23,950 nucleotides of DNA. Origin: a virus. Below, one piece after another: positions 1,872 through 23,950 of this stretch; positions within the stretch are counted from its first letter, which is position 1; every line of letters starts with the position of its first letter. Under the pieces are notes generated by a model. The model was not told the DNA's origin and searched no databases. It saw nothing but the letters and a program-made list of their open reading frames with translations. The stretch lies in the IMG/VR virus record IMGVR_UViG_3300008221_000030, positions 1 to 23,950 of that record; one strand, 5' to 3'. Made by a program: the position numbers and the translations under genes.

Positions 1872-4800
1872 ATGGCCGTACCTACGACGCCCACGGGGCC
1901 TCTTAACGTAAATCCTGTTTTTCCACCCCCTGCCGTGTTACAGCAGGAGGCGGATGATGCGGCTGATCTTGAGCGTTTAGCGGCTCAGTCCGGGGAAAGC
2001 CTTGTTAATTTTAACGACCCTGCGTTTTTTAGAAAGCTTATTGAAAAGCAAGGACTCGAGTCCGTAACAGACGATGTCGTAAGACTAGCTAATAATCAGG
2101 TGGACGGGTATGAATTTAATCTTGAGGGCATGTTGGACGGCACGGCATCTATTTTTGACGGTCTGCCTAGCTTTCAAGATAAGAAAAGCCCCGGAGAAAG
2201 GGCCCAGACCTTAGAGCAAGTTTTAACACTATTTTCAGATGTACAAGATGGGGTCGAAACAGGTAACCCCGTTATTGATTCAAGCACGGGGGAGCAGGTA
2301 GTTGACCCCGAAACGGGGCAGGCTCAGTTCTACGACCCTCTTTTTGGGCCTAGAATGACTGCGGTTGGATTGGGCGTTAAAGAAGCCATTATTCCGGCGG
2401 TAACAAGCACCGCGGCTGCCGTCGCAGGGGCCACCTTGGCAACGGCCGCCGTTGCACCTTATGCGGCGACAGTATCTTTAGCAAACCCTCTTTTGGGATT
2501 GGGTTTAACGGGCGGTGCTTTTATAGCCGGAGGCTTAACGTCGGCCGTTGCCGGAGGAATATTTGGAGACGCTGTTGATGATCTTATTTATGACGACCCC
2601 GATCCTATTTTAATACCGTCCTTACAGAAGTATTACAATGCCGCGGAGACCGGTACATACATGTTGGCGGGATCAGCAAGTGTCCCGGTCTTAGCGGCTA
2701 AACTGCCCGGTCCTCGTATTGTAGAAGCGTTTCAAGGCCGGAAGTTCTTAGATGCGTGGAAGACCGCTAGTTCAGGTTCCGCTAATTCAATAGATGACCT
2801 AAGTCGCGCTACAGTAGAAGCTTTAGGCTCACAAAATGCGGCAAGAGCTTTAGCGACTCGTTCCGTCGAACCGGGCGCATCCAAGCTCGGAAATGTGCTA
2901 CAGAAGTTGCGTACTGATCCCACAAAAGGTCCAAGATCGGTAAGAGCTTTTCAAGCCCTAACTGAAGGCAGTGCCCGAAATTCTGCCGACATTCTGTCAG
3001 GCAATAAAACACTCTTAGGTTTTGAAGCCTTATACGCGGCCGCCTCAGCCAGTGGAGCTTTTGTTGCAGAAGCGGTTGACCCTAACGCTCCGGGTACTAG
3101 ATTGGCTTTGGAAATCGCCCCTCCCGTTTCGGTTCCGGCGGCCTTAAAGCTTGGAATATGGACAACAAAAGGTGTTATAAACGGTGCCCAAGGTCTTTAT
3201 GATGGGCTATCCACTAAAGGTTTGGAAAAAACGGGTGATCGCATTGAGAGCATTCTATCGGTAGAAGCCGATTCCCGTTTATATAATTACTTGATGGAAC
3301 AACCCGAGTTTAAAAATTCCAACGACCCCAAAGAAAAAATGAATTTGTTCATTAAGTATATGTTGGACCCTGAAGTAGACTTAGGCCCCTCGGAGGCCGC
3401 CGTAGACGGTGCCCGTTTAGTTGATAAAAAACTTATTGAGGCTTTCGATGTTGGGCCATCACGATCTTTGATTCCCGGTGACGAATTTGGTCCCGTTGTA
3501 GAGCGGCTTAATTTAGAACTAGAAACCTCTAGCAATGCGTTGTCGATAGCCACTGACCGCGGTAGAGATCAATTTATTCAAAACGCCTTGCGCAAAATTG
3601 AAGCCCTAGAAGCATCGGGTAATCCAGAAGCTTTACAAATTGCGGCAGTTGTTAAACAGGGTTTAATAGAAGAAGACATCCTAAAAACTTTAACCGGAAA
3701 ACTCAGCAAGTTAGACGACGCTTTATTAAAAGTTTACGGGGGTGAATCTATTCCGGAAGATGTTGGTTTAGACCTTAGCCCTAAGATTTTTGATCTTTTA
3801 AAACAAACTATATCCGCTCAAAAACAACGTCAAAACCAATTGTGGAATAAAATAGGGGACTTTCAATTAACATCGTTTGAGTCAATAGCTCCGGACGGTA
3901 CTCTTGTAGAAACAAATGTTCCAAACATTGTGAGTATTTTTGAGGTCCCTAACATAGGCTTCAAGGGCCTAAAATTCAGGACCCAAGGCGCACAAGATGA
4001 GTTCGACACTATTTTAGGAGGGTACAAAAAAGACATTGAAGAAATAAGCGAGTTTTTTCAACCGCAAGCCGGGAGGGATCTTGAACTTAATGGTACCCCT
4101 GTTCCTTTTGAAATCGCAGAAGTTCAGTTGCCGTCTCAAAAAAGATTGGAGAAGCTACTAGACCAGTTAGCCGGTACAGGCTATGAAAATCAACCTATCC
4201 GGCAGCTTATACTTTTGGAGGAAGCCGGAGCACCCCCTGAAGTTCAAATTAAAAAGTTTCGAGAACTGGCGAACGCGGCAAGAAACGATGCGGTTCTTGA
4301 AGAAGGCGGTGTTGCGCGTAATACTTCAACCTTAACTTTAGCCAAGGCTTTCGACGAGCAAGCTACATTAATCGCAACGACGGCTCGCCGGGAAAAAGAA
4401 GTTTCTCAAACAAATGCGGAACAATTGTTACTTAGGAAAAAATTTGCAGCGGAACAACCTCCCGTGGAGATCGCGGTAAACCCGTATGATTTAAGGAAAG
4501 CTAGGGAGATTCTCTCGAACCTTAAAGACAAACAACGCAGCTTAACGAATGGGTCAAACCCCAATTATCAACAAGGGATGAATGTGGGTTTTCTCATAAA
4601 AGCCATAGAGCAAGACTTAGATGTTAGGAATATAGCTAGAACTTTGCCTACCGTCGATGCGGAAGGTGGTGTTTTGACTAAGGAAGCTCAACAAATTGTA
4701 AAAGACTATACGGATGCTACAAGTTACTCGCGAGCAGTTAACAACGTGTGGACTAGAACAATTGTTGGTAAGCTTGACAACACCGGGTCGGATGGTTCGA

Positions 4801-7364: not shown

Positions 7365-7697
7365 ATGGACCCTATCCTAGAGCATCATTACAACAACCTC
7401 GCGGAAAATAAAGCCGTTAATAATGAAGACGGCTCTGTTTCCACGGTTTTTACCGCGCAAGTTGATATTAACGGGAAACCTACTCTTATACCTACAGTTT
7501 GGGATGGTGAGGTTATTTCAACGGAAGAGGCTACCGAAAAAGCGGTAAGCTCGGGTGTGACATGGCCTACGGCAGATACACATCCGGAACTACGAGAATA
7601 CGACAAGAAACTGCACAAAGACATGAAGCCAATGTCTCAAGAAGAAGCCTTGAAGTTTCTCGAAGTATTTAAAGCAGGGAAAAGAGACATTATTTAG
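7365..7697 (+). CDS. Conserved phage protein with PTLIPTVWDG motif (110 aa)
   Basis: The central part carries NGKPTLIPTVWDGEVIS, followed by a GVTWPTADTHPE segment and a YDKKLHKDMKPM helix. This block (IPTVWDG, then a W-P-x-x-D/N-T turn and a helix ending in H-x-x-M) is a widespread small phage module. It occurs either alone or embedded in larger virion or internal proteins, and its biochemical function is unknown to me. This copy stands alone. The stop overlaps by 4 bp, tail to tail, with the opposite-strand helicase, so this is the last gene of the left rightward unit. No hairpin terminator is seen between them, and transcription may run into the antisense of the helicase gene. Confidence 0.7.
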   Translation: MDPILEHHYNNLAENKAVNNEDGSVSTVFTAQVDINGKPTLIPTVWDGEVISTEEATEKAVSSGVTWPTADTHPELREYDKKLHKDMKPMSQEEALKFLEVFKAGKRDII

Positions 7698-9151
7698 GTT
7701 AACCAGTCCTTAGTGTTTTCACCAAGCACCTGCCCGGCTAAATCTATTTTCCCGCGTAACGCGCCTAAGATCTTTTCGTCAATAGTCCCGGGAGACACTA
7801 GGTCGATATAGGTTACCGCCTTTTTCTGCCCTATTCGGTGCGCACGGTCCTCGGACTGTAGTCTAATTTCCAAGTCATAGCTGTTGCTAAAGTATACAAC
7901 GGTGTTGGCGGCCGTCAAAGTGATGCCGTATCCGCCAGTTTTAGGCTGTCCGATAAAGAACCTTAGCTCCGAATCAGGTTTTTGAAACTCTTCTACGATG
8001 TTCTGCCTTTCATCTTGTTCCGTGGCACCGTAATAGGTGGCAACCGAATTAGGCCCAAAACGCTCGCCTAACGCCTTTGCGATCTGCTTGATATCATGGG
8101 TATAGGACGCCCAGATAATGGCCTTACCCTGCAATTCATCGGTTATTTCAAGCAACTCGTCCAAGCGTCTACTTGGAAGCAACTCTATTTCCCCGTCATC
8201 CGGTTGTAAGAACCCGCAACAGATTTGTTGCAAACGCATGATCTGCGTTAAGACGCTTGCCGTCGTTGCCAACTCGCCGCTTTCCAGTTTGGCTAGTGCT
8301 AACTTTTGCATCTGGTTGTACACTCGGATTTGTTCCGGCGTCAACTGCACGTCTCTGCGGATGTAAAGCTTTGCCGGTAAATCTAAGCAGTCTACCTTTA
8401 GTACCCTGTTGCTAAACTTATCTAACTTAACATTTAGCTCGTCTAAACGGCGGTATCCCGTAATCTCTTGAAAACTGCGCTGACCCATAACCCGGCGTTG
8501 CACGATAGAGTACCGGCTTTGAAAGGCAAAGAAGCTATTGAACTCCAGAGCCTTCGCGTTGAGAAACAAGCACTGGCTAAACAGATCCATCGGGGACTTT
8601 GTGATAGGACTTCCAGTGAGGATGCGGCGATACTTGCTTATCTTGTTCATCCCAATAATGTTTTTTGTGCGAGCGGCTTTACGGTTCTTAATAGTCGTAG
8701 ATTCGTCTACGATAACCATGTTATCCGGGTTTTTCCTCAAGAACTGATAGGCAATGTTCGCGGCCCTCGGTGTAGAGAAAGCCTCTGTATTCATAACAAA
8801 TATCTTGAGACTTCCATCGGAGTTATTTGTAAAGTCCTCCAGTTCAGCTTGATACTTCTTTGACGTACTAGGTATCCACCGCAGAACAGTACGCTCTATC
8901 CTATCTGGCACATGCGTAGGTATTTCACCCCGAATCCAGTTGTCGTACACCCCTTTAGGGGCCACAACTAAGCAGGCGTTTATTTTGTTATCCTCGTAAA
9001 GCATGGATATCGTATCCAATGCTACCTTTGTCTTTCCCGTACCCATTTCCATGAGAAGAGCATAGTAGTCCTTGTCCCACGAATCAGACAGGGCCTGCAT
9101 CTGATGGGTAAAAGGTTCGGTTTTAAACTTGAAGTCGTTTATTTTAATCAT
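7694..9151 (-). CDS. SNF2-like superfamily 2 DNA helicase/translocase (485 aa)
   Basis: A DNA-dependent ATPase of the SNF2/DEAD superfamily, expected to remodel or unwind DNA during phage replication or recombination. Motifs are in order: Q-like FTHQ at 14-17, Walker A MGTGKT at 36-41, motif Ia VVAPKGV, motif II VDES at 148-151 (in place of the usual DEAH), motif III RRILTGSP at 175-182, motif V GYGITLTAA at 407-415, and motif VI QSEDRAHRIGQ at 432-442, which contains the arginine finger. Both RecA-like lobes are therefore complete, and 485 residues is normal for compact phage members. The ATG has an AGAGGAA ribosome-binding site. It is the only gene on the minus strand, expressed from the 95-bp divergent region at 9152-9246. 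Confidence in the family is high, but its partner and substrate are unknown. Confidence 0.9.
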   Translation of the reverse strand: MIKINDFKFKTEPFTHQMQALSDSWDKDYYALLMEMGTGKTKVALDTISMLYEDNKINACLVVAPKGVYDNWIRGEIPTHVPDRIERTVLRWIPSTSKKYQAELEDFTNNSDGSLKIFVMNTEAFSTPRAANIAYQFLRKNPDNMVIVDESTTIKNRKAARTKNIIGMNKISKYRRILTGSPITKSPMDLFSQCLFLNAKALEFNSFFAFQSRYSIVQRRVMGQRSFQEITGYRRLDELNVKLDKFSNRVLKVDCLDLPAKLYIRRDVQLTPEQIRVYNQMQKLALAKLESGELATTASVLTQIMRLQQICCGFLQPDDGEIELLPSRRLDELLEITDELQGKAIIWASYTHDIKQIAKALGERFGPNSVATYYGATEQDERQNIVEEFQKPDSELRFFIGQPKTGGYGITLTAANTVVYFSNSYDLEIRLQSEDRAHRIGQKKAVTYIDLVSPGTIDEKILGALRGKIDLAGQVLGENTKDWLT

Positions 9152-16598: not shown

Positions 16599-16766
16599 AT
16601 GGATACAGATAAGTGGAAAAGCGTGTTAGTTCCAAAGGAAGTGTACGAAGAAATTAAGTTACGTTCTAAGAAAGAAGGCCGTACCATCAGTGGACAACTG
16701 CGTGTAATGTTTAGCGCATACAAAGAGCAGGAAGATTTAAAAAATAGTTCTACTGCCAAACAATAG
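16599..16766 (+). CDS. Ribbon-helix-helix (Arc/CopG-like) DNA-binding protein (55 aa)
   Basis: Residues 6-42 fit the ribbon-helix-helix fold. A short beta strand (WKSVLVP) would pair in a dimer to insert into the major groove. Helix A (KEVYEEIKLRSKKEG) follows, then a turn with R-T-I-S and helix B (GQLRVMFSAYKEQ). The remaining C-terminus is polar. Such 45-60 residue proteins are typical phage and plasmid regulators that bind operator repeats as dimers or tetramers. It is the first gene after the replication operon and has its own promoter. It lies immediately upstream of the candidate small RNA and of repeated CATAT/ATAC sites, so autoregulation or binding to these repeats is a reasonable inference. 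Too short for certainty about the target. Confidence 0.75.
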   Translation: MDTDKWKSVLVPKEVYEEIKLRSKKEGRTISGQLRVMFSAYKEQEDLKNSSTAKQ

Positions 16767-16796
16767 TTGTAATGCTCCCATATTGTCGCGTATACT
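16767..16796 (+). promoter_or_regulatory. Promoter-like block with no gene behind it
   Basis: TTGTAA (16767-16772) and TATACT (16791-16796) are 18 bp apart. In between, 16775-16795 carries CTCCCATATTGTC and GTATAC, nearly identical to the block at 16882-16900 that precedes the next gene. Transcription would reach the terminator at 16829-16867 without crossing an ORF. TATTGT at 16781-16786 is an alternative -10, which would move the start about 10 bases upstream. Confidence 0.5.
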
Positions 16797-16802
16797 TACT
16801 TT

Positions 16803-16867
16803 GTGCTCCGTAGGCACTTGGTGGTACGAAAAACCCTCGCAATTGACTAGTTGCGGGGGTTTTTTTT
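16803..16867 (+). ncRNA. Candidate phage small RNA with anti-leader loop
   Basis: Between the promoter-like block at 16767-16796 and a strong terminator there are about 65 bases without an ORF. The predicted RNA would begin with a small hairpin: GTGC (16803-16806), loop TCCGTAG (16807-16813), GCAC (16814-16817). The loop is the exact complement of CTACGGA. At least seven downstream leaders contain TACGGA just before their start codons, most as CTACGGAG. With G-U pairs, 7 to 11 contiguous pairs form at each site. A short single-stranded linker (TTGGTGGTACG) and the terminator hairpin follow. It could block ribosome binding to these mRNAs. Alternatives: the 3' UTR of the gene at 16599, or an inverted copy of the leader. 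The hairpin stem is only 4 bp. Seen: the sequence pattern; inferred: transcription and function. Confidence 0.4.
16829..16867 (+). terminator. Strong Rho-independent terminator
   Basis: ACCCTCGCAA (16833-16842) pairs with TTGCGGGGGT (16851-16860), with one G-T pair, across an 8-base loop. Five A on the left and eight T on the right can lengthen the stem, so it may work in both directions. Confidence 0.88.
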
Positions 16868-16874
16868 GTTTTAC

Positions 16875-16929
16875 TTGCCAACTCCCATATTGTCGTATAC
16901 AGTTGGACTTCAATTTTACTTTTACGGAG
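16875..16929 (+). promoter_or_regulatory. Promoter block and TACGGAG leader
   Basis: TTGCCA (16875-16880) is followed by the repeated block CTCCCATATTGTCGTATAC (16882-16900). TATACA at 16896-16901 or TATTGT at 16888-16893 could be the -10. The leader ends with TACGGAG (16923-16929), 7 bases before the ATG at 16937. Confidence 0.5.
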
Positions 16930-16936
16930 TACGAAC

Positions 16937-17158
16937 ATGCAGGATAAACAATTTGTTGATGGTTTAATGATTAAAAAAGCGAGCCCTAACGCGCCCGAGT
17001 GGATTAAGTGTAACGGATCTATCAAGCGCGAAGACCTCATACGTTGGCTAGGCGAGCAGTCTGGCGATTGGATTAATATCCAGATATGTGAGGGTAAATC
17101 GGGAAAATGGTATGCCGAGGTTGACAACTGGAAGCCGGAAAGCCAAGGTGGACAGTAA
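16937..17158 (+). CDS. Small conserved phage protein (FVDGLMIKKASPNAPEW family, 73 aa)
   Basis: The protein starts with FVDGLMIKKASPNAPEWIKC, continues with SIKREDLIRWLGEQ and a GDWINIQICEGKSGKWYAEVDNWKP end. This arrangement (a beta strand with D-G-L-x-x-K, N-A-P, a short helix, then W-x-N and S-x-x-G-K-x-Y-A-x-V-D-x-W-K-P) is a widespread small phage family. It is usually found near ssDNA-binding, recombination or polymerase genes and has no proven function. The pattern suggests a small mixed alpha/beta domain. The ATG has TACGGAG 7 bases upstream. The stop overlaps the next start by one base (TAATG), so the two genes are co-translated. Confidence 0.8.
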   Translation: MQDKQFVDGLMIKKASPNAPEWIKCNGSIKREDLIRWLGEQSGDWINIQICEGKSGKWYAEVDNWKPESQGGQ

Positions 17159-17375: not shown

Positions 17376-17594
17376 ATGGATATTAATTCGGAAGAGTGGG
17401 ATAACATTCTCAGTGAAATGCACAAAATGTTGCCGCCTAATATGACGGATGCGCTCATTGTGGACGTTATCCATTTTATATTGGTGCAATACGATATCGA
17501 CTGGTCTCGCACACTGCGGCTCACGCACATCGTTAACGACCTACACGCCTCGCACACCGGTGAAAAGGTTGATAGCGCAAAAAAGTTACATTAA
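17376..17594 (+). CDS. Hypothetical phage protein (72 aa)
   Basis: The ATG at 17376 is 2 bp after the previous stop. A TTG nine codons upstream extends the frame but would overlap the previous gene without benefit. The product is acidic at the N-terminus (MDINSEEWDNILSEM), has a Pro-x-x-M-T-D-A turn, a hydrophobic helix (LIVDVIHFILVQYDIDW) too short and polar to be a clear membrane segment, and a histidine-rich C-terminal third (LTHIVNDLHASH). No family is recognised. A tight 3-helix fold is plausible. No ribosome-binding site is evident, which suggests coupling. Confidence 0.6.
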   Translation: MDINSEEWDNILSEMHKMLPPNMTDALIVDVIHFILVQYDIDWSRTLRLTHIVNDLHASHTGEKVDSAKKLH

Positions 17595-18209: not shown

Positions 18210-18260
18210 TTGACAAACTCCCATACCATATTCATACTGGCGCTTCACATATCTACGGAG
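18210..18260 (+). promoter_or_regulatory. Sigma70-like promoter and TACGGAG leader
   Basis: Perfect TTGACA (18210-18215), exactly 17 bp, CATACT (18233-18238). The spacer contains the repeated CTCCCATA word. The leader has TACGGAG at 18254-18260, seven bases before the TTG start at 18268. The preceding stretch 18129-18209 shows no ORF or RNA gene. Confidence 0.7.
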
Positions 18261-18267
18261 ATAGAAT

Positions 18268-18483
18268 TTGAAGCACTTATCAGACCTCGAAAACATTGTG
18301 TTTAAACTTCGAGTATTTATTATCCAGAACCGAAACCGTGACCGTGTCGCGGAACTATCCGGGCTTGCCCGTAACACCATCTCGGGCTTTGTAAATGACA
18401 AACATGAGATCCGATTCAAGAACTTAGTAGCAATTGATAAAGCCGTAACTCAAATTAAACTGACGAAGGAGTTTGTGAAATGA
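18268..18483 (+). CDS. Small Cro/XRE-like helix-turn-helix protein, TTG start (71 aa)
   Basis: Residues about 23-46 (NRDRVAELSGLARNTISG and the following turn) fit the helix-turn-helix of the Cro/CI/XRE family, with the A-x-x-S-G-L-x-x-x-T-I-S core. A further helix (RFKNLVAIDKAV) completes a minimal five-helix fold. It should bind operators as a dimer. The start must be TTG: the ORF contains no ATG at all, and TACGGAG is placed seven bases before TTG. A rare start keeps expression low, as is common for regulators. Its own promoter contains the repeated CTCCCATA word, so it may control itself and the other units. It overlaps the next gene by 4 bp. Confidence 0.75.
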   Translation: MKHLSDLENIVFKLRVFIIQNRNRDRVAELSGLARNTISGFVNDKHEIRFKNLVAIDKAVTQIKLTKEFVK

Positions 18484-18839
18484 TAGACCTTATACTGCGC
18501 CACGCCGATGAAGACGACAAGGATACTTTTTTACCCATTGTCCGCATAGATGAAGTTGAGGTCTATCGCGGCGAGTACCAGAACAGTTCTTTTAAGGCCC
18601 TGTATTGTTGCATGCGAGCCGCCGAGAACGCAGTAAAAGACAAGTTAACGGACATAGAGCAGGACTTAGATTTTAGGAATATAGACCTTATGCAAACAGA
18701 AGAAGGCAGGCAACTGGTGTGGAAAGTATTTGCCTGTCCAGATCACGGCGTTAAAGTGTCCACGCCGTCAAAAAACGATTGGCTTCGTTTGCAAAAAGAA
18801 TGCCCTGCAATTGAGCCGCCGGAAGGTGACGACGCATGA
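18480..18839 (+). CDS. Hypothetical acidic phage protein (119 aa)
   Basis: It starts in an ATGA overlap with the HTH gene. The N-terminal residues 1-35 alternate between hydrophobic and acidic (LILRHADEDDKDTFLPIVRID), followed by a helix with ALYCCMRAAENAVKDKL and an acidic middle part. Near residue 87 there is CPDHG and near 107 a KECPAIEPPEGDD tail. Three or four cysteines are present but not in a standard zinc-finger spacing. No family is recognised. The gene ends in another ATGA overlap, so genes 18268 to 19039 are translationally coupled. Confidence 0.65.
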   Translation: MIDLILRHADEDDKDTFLPIVRIDEVEVYRGEYQNSSFKALYCCMRAAENAVKDKLTDIEQDLDFRNIDLMQTEEGRQLVWKVFACPDHGVKVSTPSKNDWLRLQKECPAIEPPEGDDA

Positions 18840-21005: not shown

Positions 21006-21043
21006 TCGCATACTATCGTATATCTAATAACTTACTTACGGAG
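21002..21043 (+). promoter_or_regulatory. Operator/promoter block and TACGGAG leader
   Basis: TCGCATACTA (21006-21015) is the exact inverse of the TAGTATGCGA word found at 21384 and 22003. ATAC and GTAT around TATC (21010-21021) form a dyad. TATATC at 21019-21024 may be the -10. TACGGAG at 21037-21043 is the ribosome-binding leader, six bases before the ATG at 21050. Confidence 0.45.
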
Positions 21044-21049
21044 TATCCA

Positions 21050-21220
21050 ATGCTTAAACTATTTGAAATGTTGCGCGACTTTCTAAACAAACCTTATATA
21101 TCACCGCCGGAAGAACCTATTGAGCCTACGGTCAATGTTGCACCCCCTCGTAAACCAAAAACAAAAACAAAAGCAAAGGCAAAGGCTAAACCTCGGTCGG
21201 GCCTCAAGGCGGTTAAATAA
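21050..21220 (+). CDS. Micro-protein with amphipathic helix and Lys/Ala basic tail (56 aa)
   Basis: The start is fixed by TACGGAG at 21037-21043. Residues 1-14 (MLKLFEMLRDFLNK) form an amphipathic helix. Residues 18-35 are Pro/Glu-rich, and residues 33-56 are a tail of alternating Lys with Thr or Ala (KTKTKAKAKAKPRSGLK), like histone H1 or nucleoid-protein tails. The layout suggests a DNA- or RNA-binding tail on a small helical anchor. The next ORF begins one base into the stop and has the same layout (hydrophobic helix, Pro-rich linker, basic tail), so they may be partners or diverged copies. No family is recognised. Confidence 0.55.
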   Translation: MLKLFEMLRDFLNKPYISPPEEPIEPTVNVAPPRKPKTKTKAKAKAKPRSGLKAVK

Positions 21221-21349: not shown

Positions 21350-21375
21350 AGCCCGTTTAGTTGACGGGCTTTTTT
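21350..21375 (+). terminator. Rho-independent terminator (copy 1 of a duplicated module)
   Basis: AGCCCGT (21350-21356) pairs perfectly with ACGGGCT (21364-21370), loop TTAGTTG, followed by five T. Nearly the same hairpin recurs at 21968-21993. Confidence 0.9.
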
Positions 21376-21382
21376 ATGTGCA

Positions 21383-21415
21383 GTAGTATGCGACTTCACC
21401 CATATTAACTACGGA
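21383..21415 (+). promoter_or_regulatory. Operator/promoter block and TACGGA leader
   Basis: GTAGTATGCGA (21383-21393) is identical to 22002-22012. CCCATATT (21399-21406) may hold the -10. TACGGA at 21410-21415 lies eight bases before the ATG at 21424; the last G of the usual TACGGAG is T here. Confidence 0.45.
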
Positions 21416-21423
21416 TTAATAAA

Positions 21424-21930
21424 ATGAACGAACTAACGGAAACCATAGATGTAGCGATAAAGAAATACCTAGATAGATCAAGACAATACTATTTGGATCT
21501 AAGTGAGAGGTTTGATCTAAGTGTAGAGCGCACTGATGCTCTAAAAGAACGAGCGCACGAAAACGAGATAATAGCAATGAGAGATGCCAATAGAATTTCT
21601 AAGCTCGAGCGACTAGCGGCGTCAATTATTACGCAAGGGCATAAAATCGACAAATTAGAACAAGATAGTCATTGGTCTTTTTGCGATGTGGAACGGGTAG
21701 AGCGACGACTAGCCGTATTAGAGTCGTCCGAGCCATCCGAAATAACTTTTACACTCACGCTACCCCTTTCAAGTAAAAATACTCTAGAGGTTGCAATTGA
21801 TCATGCTATAGAACATCACGACGATTTGATCGACGACGAACTGCATTGCCCCGACAGTGTAAAAGTTTTTGAGGCCCGAAGGCGGGACTTACGTTTGATT
21901 AAATCGCAGTTACCCGATCCGGTTGACTAA
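21424..21930 (+). CDS. Coiled-coil phage protein of unknown function (168 aa)
   Basis: Residues about 3-105 are nearly all helical and charged, with heptad-like spacing (LSERFDLSVERTDALKERA, ISKLERLAASIITQGHKI, DVERVERRLAVLE), so a long coiled coil is likely. Residues 109-128 (ITFTLTLPLSSKNTLEVAID) look like a beta strand or hairpin, and the C-terminal 40 residues are helical and acidic with a histidine cluster (HAIEHHDDLIDDELH). No family is recognised. It is the only gene of its transcription unit, between two copies of the duplicated terminator-promoter module, and may therefore be a separately acquired cassette. Confidence 0.7.
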   Translation: MNELTETIDVAIKKYLDRSRQYYLDLSERFDLSVERTDALKERAHENEIIAMRDANRISKLERLAASIITQGHKIDKLEQDSHWSFCDVERVERRLAVLESSEPSEITFTLTLPLSSKNTLEVAIDHAIEHHDDLIDDELHCPDSVKVFEARRRDLRLIKSQLPDPVD

Positions 21931-21967: not shown

Positions 21968-21993
21968 AGCCCGTTATAGTTGACGGGCTTTTT
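21968..21993 (+). terminator. Rho-independent terminator (copy 2 of the duplicated module)
   Basis: AGCCCGT (21968-21974) pairs with ACGGGCT (21983-21989), loop TATAGTTG, with T's to 21993. Same stem and nearly the same loop as at 21350. Confidence 0.9.
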
Positions 21994-22001
21994 ATTGTTA
22001 G

Positions 22002-22034
22002 GTAGTATGCGATATATCTTATACAACTACGGAG
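22002..22034 (+). promoter_or_regulatory. Operator/promoter block and TACGGAG leader
   Basis: GTAGTATGCGA (22002-22012) is followed by TATACA (22020-22025), a -10 candidate. TACGGAG at 22028-22034 lies nine bases before the ATG at 22044. The very short distance from -10 to leader leaves room for only a minimal 5' UTR. Confidence 0.45.
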
Positions 22035-22043
22035 TCAATTAAG

Positions 22044-22736
22044 ATGAAATTACTTAACACGACGGGCAGTAACTTTAAAATTAAAAAAACAATTAAGCGC
22101 GGCGGAAACATACGCGTCGCTAGTCTGTCATTAATGCCAGACCGCAAAATATGCGCGGGCAGTAAGGCGGCCGGATGCTTTGAAACATGTCTAAAGTCGA
22201 GCGGGCGGGGTGCGTTTAAAAACGTGGCAACTGCACGACAAAACAAAACTGACTTTTATTTGTCGGACCGTCAGGGTTTTCTTTCCCAGTTGCGGGCCGA
22301 GCTTACCAACTTTGACAAACTATGCGAAAAACAAAACGTAACGGGTTGGGTCCGGTTAAATACTATTTCCGATATTGATTACGAGAATCATGGCATCCCG
22401 CAAGCGTTTCCGGCGTTAAACTTTTACGACTACACCAAACGAGTTGACCGCATTGGCAGGACTCCGCCGAACTATAATTTAATATTCAGTTATAGCGGTC
22501 GCGACCAATACCAAAAAAGTGTAGATAAACGGCCGCGAGGTACTCCCATGGCAGTCGTATTCCGTAATGAATTGCCGCCCGCTTGGGAAGGGCAGACTGT
22601 TATCGATGGCGACCGGTCGGACATAATAAACGTTCAGGCGGGAGGCGTTATTATAGGGCTACTGGCGAAGGGCAAAGCAAAAAAAGACACTTCGGGTTTT
22701 GTCGTTGATTCAAAAATTATAGCCATAGGAGGCTAA
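22044..22736 (+). CDS. Gp88-like phage protein with cysteine cluster (230 aa)
   Basis: Residues 24-56 hold RVASLSLMPDRKICAGSKAA and GCFETCLKSSGRG, a C37-x7-C45-x3-C49 cluster likely to bind metal or an iron-sulphur centre. ATARQNKT follows at 62-69. Residues 102-133 hold VRLNTISDIDYE and then IPQAFPALNFYDYTKR, and 143-152 NYNLIFSYSG. This set (cysteine cluster, K-T after R, R-L-N-x-x-S-D, F-Y-D-Y-T-K, N-Y-x-L-x-F-S) is the pattern of the phage Gp88 family, found in mycobacteriophages and marine phages, with no established function. The start has TACGGAG. The C-terminal DGDRSDIINVQAGGVIIGLLAKG completes the domain. The length agrees with the family, and no truncation is seen. Confidence 0.75.
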   Translation: MKLLNTTGSNFKIKKTIKRGGNIRVASLSLMPDRKICAGSKAAGCFETCLKSSGRGAFKNVATARQNKTDFYLSDRQGFLSQLRAELTNFDKLCEKQNVTGWVRLNTISDIDYENHGIPQAFPALNFYDYTKRVDRIGRTPPNYNLIFSYSGRDQYQKSVDKRPRGTPMAVVFRNELPPAWEGQTVIDGDRSDIINVQAGGVIIGLLAKGKAKKDTSGFVVDSKIIAIGG

Positions 22737-22949: not shown

Positions 22950-23014
22950 TTGCATTTAATACTGTACTCTCATATAATCCCATACAGCGGGATGGTCCCG
23001 CGCTTACTACGGAG
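22950..23014 (+). promoter_or_regulatory. Promoter with consensus -10, 5' hairpin and TACGGAG leader
   Basis: TTGCAT (22950-22955), 17 bp, TATAAT (22973-22978, full consensus). The start point would be near 22985, directly before the hairpin GCGGGA (22987-22992), loop TGG, TCCCGC (22996-23001). TACGGAG at 23008-23014 then leads to the ATG at 23022. The hairpin would sit at the very 5' end of the mRNA. Confidence 0.6.
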
Positions 23015-23021
23015 TAACACC

Positions 23022-23612
23022 ATGAAAAATTATAATGAGAATGAATTTTCTACTGCCGCCGAATTGGATCAAATGGACAAATTAGAGTTGCAGGTAGAAA
23101 TTGCCGCGTTGAGCGATCACATTACTGCAACAAATAATGACAAGTTGACAGCATATAAGTGTCATAAAATGGCCTTAGATAACTTAGAGAGCCGCGCAGA
23201 AGATGATCAATTGGAAATAAGTATCCTGAATAACGCGGTTACTTTTCACGAGAGCCTAAATACCCGTATGGCCGACGCCACAATGGGTATTTTAAATGAA
23301 AAGCTCGACGCTTTAGTTAAAGTTAAAATTGACGATTACATGGCGCATACCTTCGAAATAGGCCAACATCTGACGCCTAATGAGTTATTTGCCGATATGA
23401 TGGAAAACTTTGATATTGACGACTATGTGGATTGGTCCGACGTTTTTACCGACCATTTCGATATTTCTGATTACGCCGATGATATCGATACCGCGGTTGT
23501 TGACGCAATAAATGATTGCGATGATCACAACAATTTACCGGAGAAGGTCCGCGAGGTCATACAAGAAATGGCGTCGGGCGGCGAAATTACTGTAAAACTG
23601 GAGGTCAACTAA
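23022..23612 (+). CDS. Acidic coiled-coil phage protein (196 aa)
   Basis: The start is set by TACGGAG at 23008-23014; the frame is open further upstream, but that part lies in the promoter. Residues 10-75 are helical with heptad-like Leu and Ile. Residues 75-105 form another helix (NTRMADATMGILNEKLDALVKV). Residues 125-170 contain repeated FDIDDYVDW, DHFDISDYADD and AINDCDD segments that are extremely acidic. No known domain is recognised; the repeated D-I-x-D-Y pattern could bind cations or mimic DNA charge. The gene overlaps the next start by one base. Confidence 0.7.
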   Translation: MKNYNENEFSTAAELDQMDKLELQVEIAALSDHITATNNDKLTAYKCHKMALDNLESRAEDDQLEISILNNAVTFHESLNTRMADATMGILNEKLDALVKVKIDDYMAHTFEIGQHLTPNELFADMMENFDIDDYVDWSDVFTDHFDISDYADDIDTAVVDAINDCDDHNNLPEKVREVIQEMASGGEITVKLEVN

Positions 23613-23831: not shown

Positions 23832-23898
23832 TTGATTCTTAACATATACTCTTATATACTCTCATACGGCGGCGGGATTTACCCGCCTCACTACGGAG
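23832..23898 (+). promoter_or_regulatory. Promoter, 5' hairpin and TACGGAG leader
   Basis: TTGATT (23832-23837), exactly 17 bp, TATACT (23855-23860), followed by CTCATACGG as in other units. The hairpin GGCGGG (23871-23876), loop ATTTA, CCCGCC (23882-23887) would lie near the 5' end of the transcript. TACGGAG at 23892-23898 is nine bases before the ATG at 23908. Confidence 0.6.
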
Positions 23899-23907
23899 CA
23901 ATAAATT

Positions 23908-23950
23908 ATGTCGCAAGCTATCGAAATAAAGTACTTAGGACCCACCGATC
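23908..23950 (+). CDS. Start of a small phage gene, cut by the window end
   Basis: The ATG at 23908 follows TACGGAG with normal spacing. The visible residues are MSQAIEIKYLGPTD. A start of this form (a beta strand with E-I-K-Y-L-G/P-x-T-D/N) is what I recall from a widespread small phage protein family of unknown function, but 14 residues are not enough for assignment. The full length cannot be seen. It is reported because promoter, hairpin leader, ribosome-binding site and start codon are all in place. Confidence 0.55.
   Translation, partial: MSQAIEIKYLGPTD

Follow-up and report, generated by a model that had tools for sequence, protein, structure and literature searches.

Introduction

The c4 RNA of phages P1 and P7 acts around a ribosome-binding site (RBS), probably through loops, and underlies the heteroimmunity of the two phages. 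The OOP RNA of phage lambda, a short terminated RNA that acts by base pairing, is encoded opposite its target cII. Both c4 and the sar RNA of P22 are phage-encoded sRNAs that prevent the translation of ant by pairing at a phage translation start (PMC12197685). VpdS of phage VP882 affects phage and host mRNAs; like PreS of lambda it is a trans-acting, Hfq-dependent sRNA of a model temperate phage, and the text consulted in the same source describes for neither a common extended Shine-Dalgarno (SD) code that co-evolves with the sRNA (PMC12197685). Among bacteria, the alpha-r14 or 'cuckoo' sRNAs (NfeR1, Sinorhizobium) have unpaired anti-SD seeds, stems of free sequence and many predicted targets, and block initiation (PMC10746234). 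Within the open-licence literature, we found no phage sRNA with a multi-gene extended-SD regulon, and no sRNA in pelagiphages.

Here we describe a unit in an uncultured phage that is likely to be a trans-acting, base-pairing phage sRNA which occludes the RBSs of an accessory-gene regulon and co-evolves with their leaders. As with c4 and sar, a phage RNA would face a phage translation start; however, c4 and sar each have one antirepressor mRNA, whereas the present RNA has at least seven candidate leaders. Unlike the cis-encoded OOP and sar, with the former of which it shares the form of a short terminated RNA, it is encoded apart from its targets, in which respect it resembles VpdS and PreS. 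With the alpha-r14/cuckoo sRNAs it has in common the anti-SD seed and the predicted block of translation initiation, but those RNAs are bacterial and carry three ultraconserved copies of CCUCCUCCC, whereas the phage sRNA has one seed that changes with the leaders between lineages; the unit described here lacks CCUCCUCCC and has a single CUCCGUAG seed, which sets it outside that family. No Rfam family was matched at its gathering threshold in the DNA analysed here or in eight relatives, C4 included; locus hits retained to E=5 lay far under their cut-offs, and C4 was absent among them. Known riboswitches and leaders were rejected on the same lack of Rfam matches, as were tRNA and tmRNA, neither of which was found.

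Results and Discussion

The phage and the predicted sRNA unit

The window, i.e. the whole stretch of DNA analysed, is an entire IMG/VR virus record of 23,950 bases. It encodes a primase, a helicase, a family-A DNA polymerase and a terminase-small-subunit-like gene. Phage isolates gave no near DNA match to it, and its closest polA sequences among isolates were those of Phage DSL-LC04 (55%), 023Pt_psg01 (54%) and Pelagibacter phage HTVC023P (50%). Assignment of a host through matches in genome contigs was rejected, since the matching bins belong to unrelated phyla; of these matches only Pelagibacteraceae single cells (∼52% polA) look credible, and they are distant. An SNF2-family helicase (7694–9151) is encoded on the minus strand, against the direction of almost every other likely gene of the window, and a 39-nt repeat (87%; 4597–4635 and 18646–18684) is common to a 1555-aa ORF and a small downstream ORF.

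The unit sits between a ribbon-helix-helix (RHH) gene and a 73-aa gene (16937–17158), and comprises the following features:

16599–16766, plus strand: RHH gene, Arc/CopG-like (PF07878 RHH_5; Pfam 24.3 bits, just under the cut-off)
16767–16796, plus strand: sigma-70-like sRNA promoter, TTGTAA-18-TATACT (9 of 12 hexamer positions at consensus)
16776–16782, plus strand: TCCCATA box in the promoter spacer
16803–16868, plus strand: predicted sRNA of ∼65 nt, placed by promoter and terminator positions, fold and retention of the unit in relatives
16803–16817, plus strand: seed hairpin (GTGC 16803–16806, loop TCCGTAG 16807–16813, GCAC 16814–16817)
16806–16813, plus strand: seed CUCCGUAG, displayed by the hairpin
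16828–16865, plus strand: intrinsic terminator of 17 pairs, followed by a T-run

An earlier note, made from the window alone, had described a promoter-like block followed by a strong terminator with no ORF in between, and a GTGC/GCAC hairpin displaying UCCGUAG; both were confirmed. Mechanical ORFs overlap the unit (a TTG-start ORF at 16783–16947 on the plus strand, and others on the minus strand) but show no sign of being genes. For the 74-nt unit a folding energy of −31.6 kcal/mol was obtained (z −5.15, equalled in none of 200 shuffles), much of it coming from the terminator. The promoter consensus alone is near chance (2 found versus 1.2 expected), and comparative evidence was therefore needed.

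Leaders complementary to the seed in the window

Seven plus-strand leaders are complementary to the seed (contiguous Watson-Crick pairs, the same with G-U pairs admitted, and duplex energy are given for each):

16923–16929, plus strand: TACGGAG before the 73-aa gene (16937–17158); 7, up to 15, −22.0 kcal/mol
18253–18260, plus strand: CTACGGAG before an HTH gene (18268–18483); 8, 9, −20.3 kcal/mol
21037–21043, plus strand: TACGGAG before a 56-aa gene (21050–21220); 7, 12, −18.3 kcal/mol
21409–21415, plus strand: CTACGGA before a 168-aa gene (21424–21930); 7, 7, −17.5 kcal/mol, the weakest of the seven
22027–22034, plus strand: CTACGGAG before a GP88-like gene (22044–22736); 8, 9, −17.7 kcal/mol
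23007–23014, plus strand: CTACGGAG before a 196-aa gene (23022–23612); 8, 10, −23.9 kcal/mol
23891–23898, plus strand: CTACGGAG before a gene starting at 23908 that runs off the record end; 10, 10, −26.8 kcal/mol

All seven leaders had been proposed in the earlier note and are real. Its pair counts with G-U (11, 9, 11, 7, 9, 10 and 10) were close to ours, which are 15 at 16923 and 12 at 21037 and otherwise the same, and its gene set stands with two corrections: the gene at 18268 begins with TTG, and the last gene starts at 23908. The 15-nt run at 16923 partly uses bases before the likely sRNA start near 16803. The HTH gene matches PF01381 (HTH_3) just under the cut-off; the GP88-like gene is assigned to PF17338 (Pfam 9.8e-36), and the leader of its orthologue in relative L003 matches over 9 nt. 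The leader of the 196-aa gene is preceded by a 5' hairpin, GCGGGA-TGG-TCCCGC.

The seven genes lie 0.1–7 kb from the sRNA on the same strand. Contiguous Watson-Crick matching with the 5' part of the sRNA spans 7–10 nt in the seven and at most 6 nt in the remaining genes of the window; of the latter, those at 17376, 18836 and 19325 approach the seven by duplex energy alone, pairing elsewhere in the RNA. TACGGAG occurs nine times in the window versus 2.4 expected, a count reached in none of 100 shuffles, and its only minus-strand copy (the only plus-strand CTCCGTA) is the sRNA loop. Among NNNGGAG forms before window starts, TACGGAG is found at six starts and the next commonest forms at two. However, GGAG is the plain SD core, and, as the earlier note cautioned, the leader matches in the window alone therefore do not settle the sRNA question.

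The unit could also be read as a cis-acting leader or attenuator of the 73-aa gene family downstream, with conditional read-through of the terminator and trans pairing of secondary importance. An orthologue of the 73-aa gene comes after the sRNA in many relatives, and in many of them the SD of that gene follows the terminator immediately, without a clear second promoter in between. In the window, by contrast, a second promoter-like site (16875–16903) lies between the terminator and the gene, and attenuation leaves unexplained both the matches at genes kilobases away and their co-variation. We regard attenuation as improbable in place of a trans-acting sRNA, although the two are compatible and not exclusive.

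The unit in relatives and its seed alleles

Searches with the polA and RHH proteins brought ∼150 further loci. In ∼44 distinct relatives the RHH gene is followed by a promoter, a short stretch with structure and then a terminator; polA identity among the carriers of this syntenic unit goes down to ∼70%. RHH orthologues mark the locus in relatives, where the sRNA follows them at once or within ∼300 nt. The RHH protein had no match in 50,697 phage isolate records; isolates with a related polA likewise gave no match in the RHH search and were left out. Relatives thus repeat what is seen in the window, i.e. the sRNA hallmarks of its own promoter (by consensus only), an intrinsic terminator and no ORF.

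In the nearest relatives (L003, L092 and L096) the loop is identical and the rest of the unit has drifted, and in L010 a stem of ACGC/GCGT replaces GTGC/GCAC around the identical loop. The unit is conserved, but re-scaffolded, in ∼40 other loci. In a large group (L004, L009, L011, L013, L016, L017 and others), CTCCGTAG is kept as a linker behind a hairpin of free sequence; CUCCGUAG is retained while the scaffold shifts from hairpin loop to linker. Besides CUCCGUAG (the A-seed), about ten further seed alleles were found:

CUUCGUAG: L015
CUCUGUAG: L035, L043
CUCUAUAG: L036
CUCCGUGG: L052
CUCCGUUG: L028
CUCCAUGA: L040
AUUCUCCAA: L059, L064, L066, L139
UGUUCUCCAA: L076, L077
ACCUCAUAA: L069, L105, L113 and others
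CUCCAUGU: L070

Compensated changes were seen at 7 of 11 pairs of the terminator stem, and RNAalifold recovered the terminator only, because MAFFT cannot align the variable seed stem. Seed accessibility was modestly above that of other positions (0.58 versus 0.47 unpaired), and some folds (L009, L011, L158) partly bury the seed. A covariance model of the linker-type sRNA (R1), built from the present loci, found linker-type relatives at E ∼3e-9 or better and the window weakly (21.1 bits, E=0.077); homology of the window unit to the linker type therefore rests on synteny and seed.

Co-variation of seeds and leaders

Among lineages with better coverage, leaders bear the sequence that matches their seed. 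Contiguous leader matches in relatives reached 16, 13, 10 and 9 nt in L139; 13, 11, 10, 10 and 8 nt in L011; 12, 10 and 9 nt in L013; 12, 11, 8 and 8 nt in L069; 12, 10, 9, 9, 8 and 8 nt in L105; 11, 11, 9, 9, 8 and 8 nt in L076; and 10, 9, 9, 9 and 8 nt in L070. The 7-mers most frequent in leaders, identified independently of the sRNA, fall in the complement of the seed in L003, L011, L076, L139, L070 and L105.

The earlier note had held that independent divergence of loop and leaders in related phages would speak against an antisense RNA for many leaders; the opposite was observed, in that they co-diverge. When each sRNA was paired with the leaders of each lineage in a matrix (gene starts assigned by a simple rule), own seed with own leader outperformed foreign combinations by 2.24 kcal/mol (permutation sd 0.53, p=5e-5), with none of 20,000 permutations as good; the permutation takes lineages as exchangeable despite their shared ancestry, but the controls, on the same tree, are null. 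These gave 0.18 kcal/mol for the reversed seed, −0.20 for the sense strand (p=0.68), −0.08 for the unreversed complement, 0.20 for internal gene segments and 0.38 for upstream segments, none of them significant. Since the choice of seed windows was visual, centred on the anti-SD-like core and in part made with the leaders already known, the test was repeated with no seed chosen, on all 40 nt of the 5' part of the RNA, and the gain was 1.43 kcal/mol (p=0.0024; reversed control p=0.08).

Reciprocal counts over whole records pointed the same way, with the reservation that a few of the sites counted are the sRNA read in reverse complement, or a single site scored at two start codons. TACGGAG-N-ATG was found 7 times in G003, 2–9 times in other A-seed records and not at all in five records with other seeds, and TATGAGG-N-ATG 4 times in each of two ACCUCAUAA-seed records versus 0–1 in A-seed records. 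Matches to the reverse strand of the sRNA were discarded as artefacts.

Across the polA tree, 11 changes of the seed label are required. L015, nested beside the CUCCGUAG-bearing L008 (98/93 support), carries the seed CUUCGUAG; its leader CTACGAAGG precedes a gene of 229 aa that falls in one cluster with targets of L139 and L105, a second gene is preceded by a 13-pair match including two G-U pairs, and one TACGGAG-ATG site is left. L015 shows compensatory change, C to U in the seed and G to A in the leader. A conserved seed is complementary to the initiation regions of several unlinked mRNAs, and seed and targets co-vary in the own-foreign tests, the reciprocal counts and L015.

Agreement was not uniform. 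The alleles of L036, L043, L052 and L028, mostly on short contigs, have no convincing matching leaders, and the own seed ranks 5th (L036) and 8th (L043) of 12. No 8-nt leader was found in the A-seed contigs L016, L023, L151 and L006, again mostly short, by 8-mer counts over all possible starts, a noisy scoring. Of the further loci, the close relatives L097 and L095 agree, L240 is weak, and L123, L136 and L031 gave no leader match. In L099 (350–2300) the allele's best leader match, AACTAACTTA (10 nt), adjoins the SD rather than covering it, and this allele may represent a type of sRNA whose seed is not anti-SD.

The results above bear on whether a pyrimidine-rich loop carrying CUCC would simply pair with any RBS and have no special targets. 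Every classified seed allele does contain or overlap an anti-SD core (CUCC, CCUC, CUCU or CUUC). However, complementarity to the SD is shared by every lineage and cancels out of the own-versus-foreign comparison, where own seeds nevertheless beat foreign anti-SD seeds; it is the flanks of the leaders outside GGAG/GAGG that co-vary with those of the seeds, with matches of up to 16 nt, and core genes (below) are unmatched. Ordinary SD complementarity is already contradicted by these data, and we give it very little credence; the expectation that the flanking match, not CUCC, would be the informative part was borne out.

Could the motif instead be a DNA operator or promoter element, inverted in the sRNA region, with one evolving DNA-binding protein behind the co-variation? 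A protein ligand would likewise keep copies alike, and the sRNA and target promoters do have a box in common, albeit a different one (TCCCATA). Yet the leader copies sit on the SD at start-codon spacing, the sRNA copies are antisense (compare the sense-strand control, p=0.68), and the sRNA motif lies in a loop or linker beside a hairpin and a terminator with compensated stem pairs, all of which makes an operator highly improbable and favours a base-pairing RNA.

Target genes and their promoters

Across relatives the matches concentrate in accessory genes, i.e. GP88 (PF17338), DUF7227, DUF932 and small unknown proteins. In core genes an 8-nt match was found in 0 of 44 polA, 0 of 30 helicase and 1 of 23 primase leaders (the helicase and primase clusters named from length and position), and most other core genes were without one.

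A TCCCATA-type box was present in 40 of 44 sRNA promoters of relatives, and in 27 of 62 target promoters versus 72 of 666 others (OR 6.4, p 9e-10). The sharing of this box by the sRNA and many target promoters suggests that transcription of both is probably co-controlled. In the window, TC[CT]CATA boxes lie in the spacers of sRNA and target promoters (16776, 16883, 18219, 22968, 22978 and 23860); both there and in relatives they are sometimes tandem, ∼10 bp apart. The RHH protein, whose gene precedes the sRNA, is a candidate to bind this box as its operator.

Where the mRNA is presumed to begin, 19 of 62 targets have a GC-rich hairpin, versus 59 of 676 other genes (p 4e-6). Such hairpins lie between promoter and SD at 22987–23001 and 23868–23888 in the window and in many target leaders of relatives, in some of which a terminator-like T-run follows (L011 near 11550, L069 near 19560). 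Two target genes of the window are each preceded by a copy of a 36-nt direct repeat (86%; 21358–21393 and 21977–22012) that contains the tail of a terminator and a promoter-like TAGTATGCGA. Foreign ORFs were seen just inside the 73-aa target gene in L085 (∼2660–3290) and L084 (∼8430–8905); in L085 the leader and first codons of that gene are repeated behind the foreign ORF, like a leader-duplicating insertion.

The 5' hairpins could combine with pairing to affect mRNA stability, and the sign of regulation is not readable from sequence. The pairing might thus be real but of other sign, the RNA stabilising or activating its target mRNAs, or the leaders titrating, as a sponge, an RNA whose main effect is host-gene silencing. 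This seems rather unlikely, as the paired region includes the SD itself, where pairing normally prevents initiation, and seed changes are mirrored in phage leaders, marking phage genes as the selected partners.

Proposed mechanism and significance

For the preferred reading, an RBS-occluding sRNA, we propose that the unit would be transcribed into a ∼65-nt terminated RNA exposing its seed (CUCCGUAG in the window). In vivo, the seed would pair with the extended SD (UACGGAG and neighbours) common to at least seven phage genes, cover it, block 30S binding and thereby lower translation. One RNA may in this way set the translation of a dispersed accessory regulon (GP88-like, DUF932/DUF7227-type and small unknown proteins), probably switching off the whole gene set at once, while replication-core genes would escape and each lineage would keep its own seed/leader code. 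It is plausible that the RHH protein, or another reader of TCCCATA, ties sRNA and target transcription together. Plausibly, the RNA serves to shut down or tune accessory genes in concert while infection proceeds.

More tentatively, and with considerable doubt, this group of uncultured aquatic phages may possess a private RNA address code, diversified so that co-infecting relatives escape mutual silencing, in effect a regulon-scale RNA heteroimmunity. Whereas c4, sar and OOP face one phage mRNA each, here a single RNA seems to be directed at a whole set, and its pairing code has been rewritten several times in evolution, in both partners. This amounts to natural compensatory-mutation evidence, of a kind that normally has to be engineered, and provides sRNA/RBS pairs, already distinct in nature, for testing in laboratory bacteria. 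Furthermore, it points to post-transcriptional regulons in uncultured phages.
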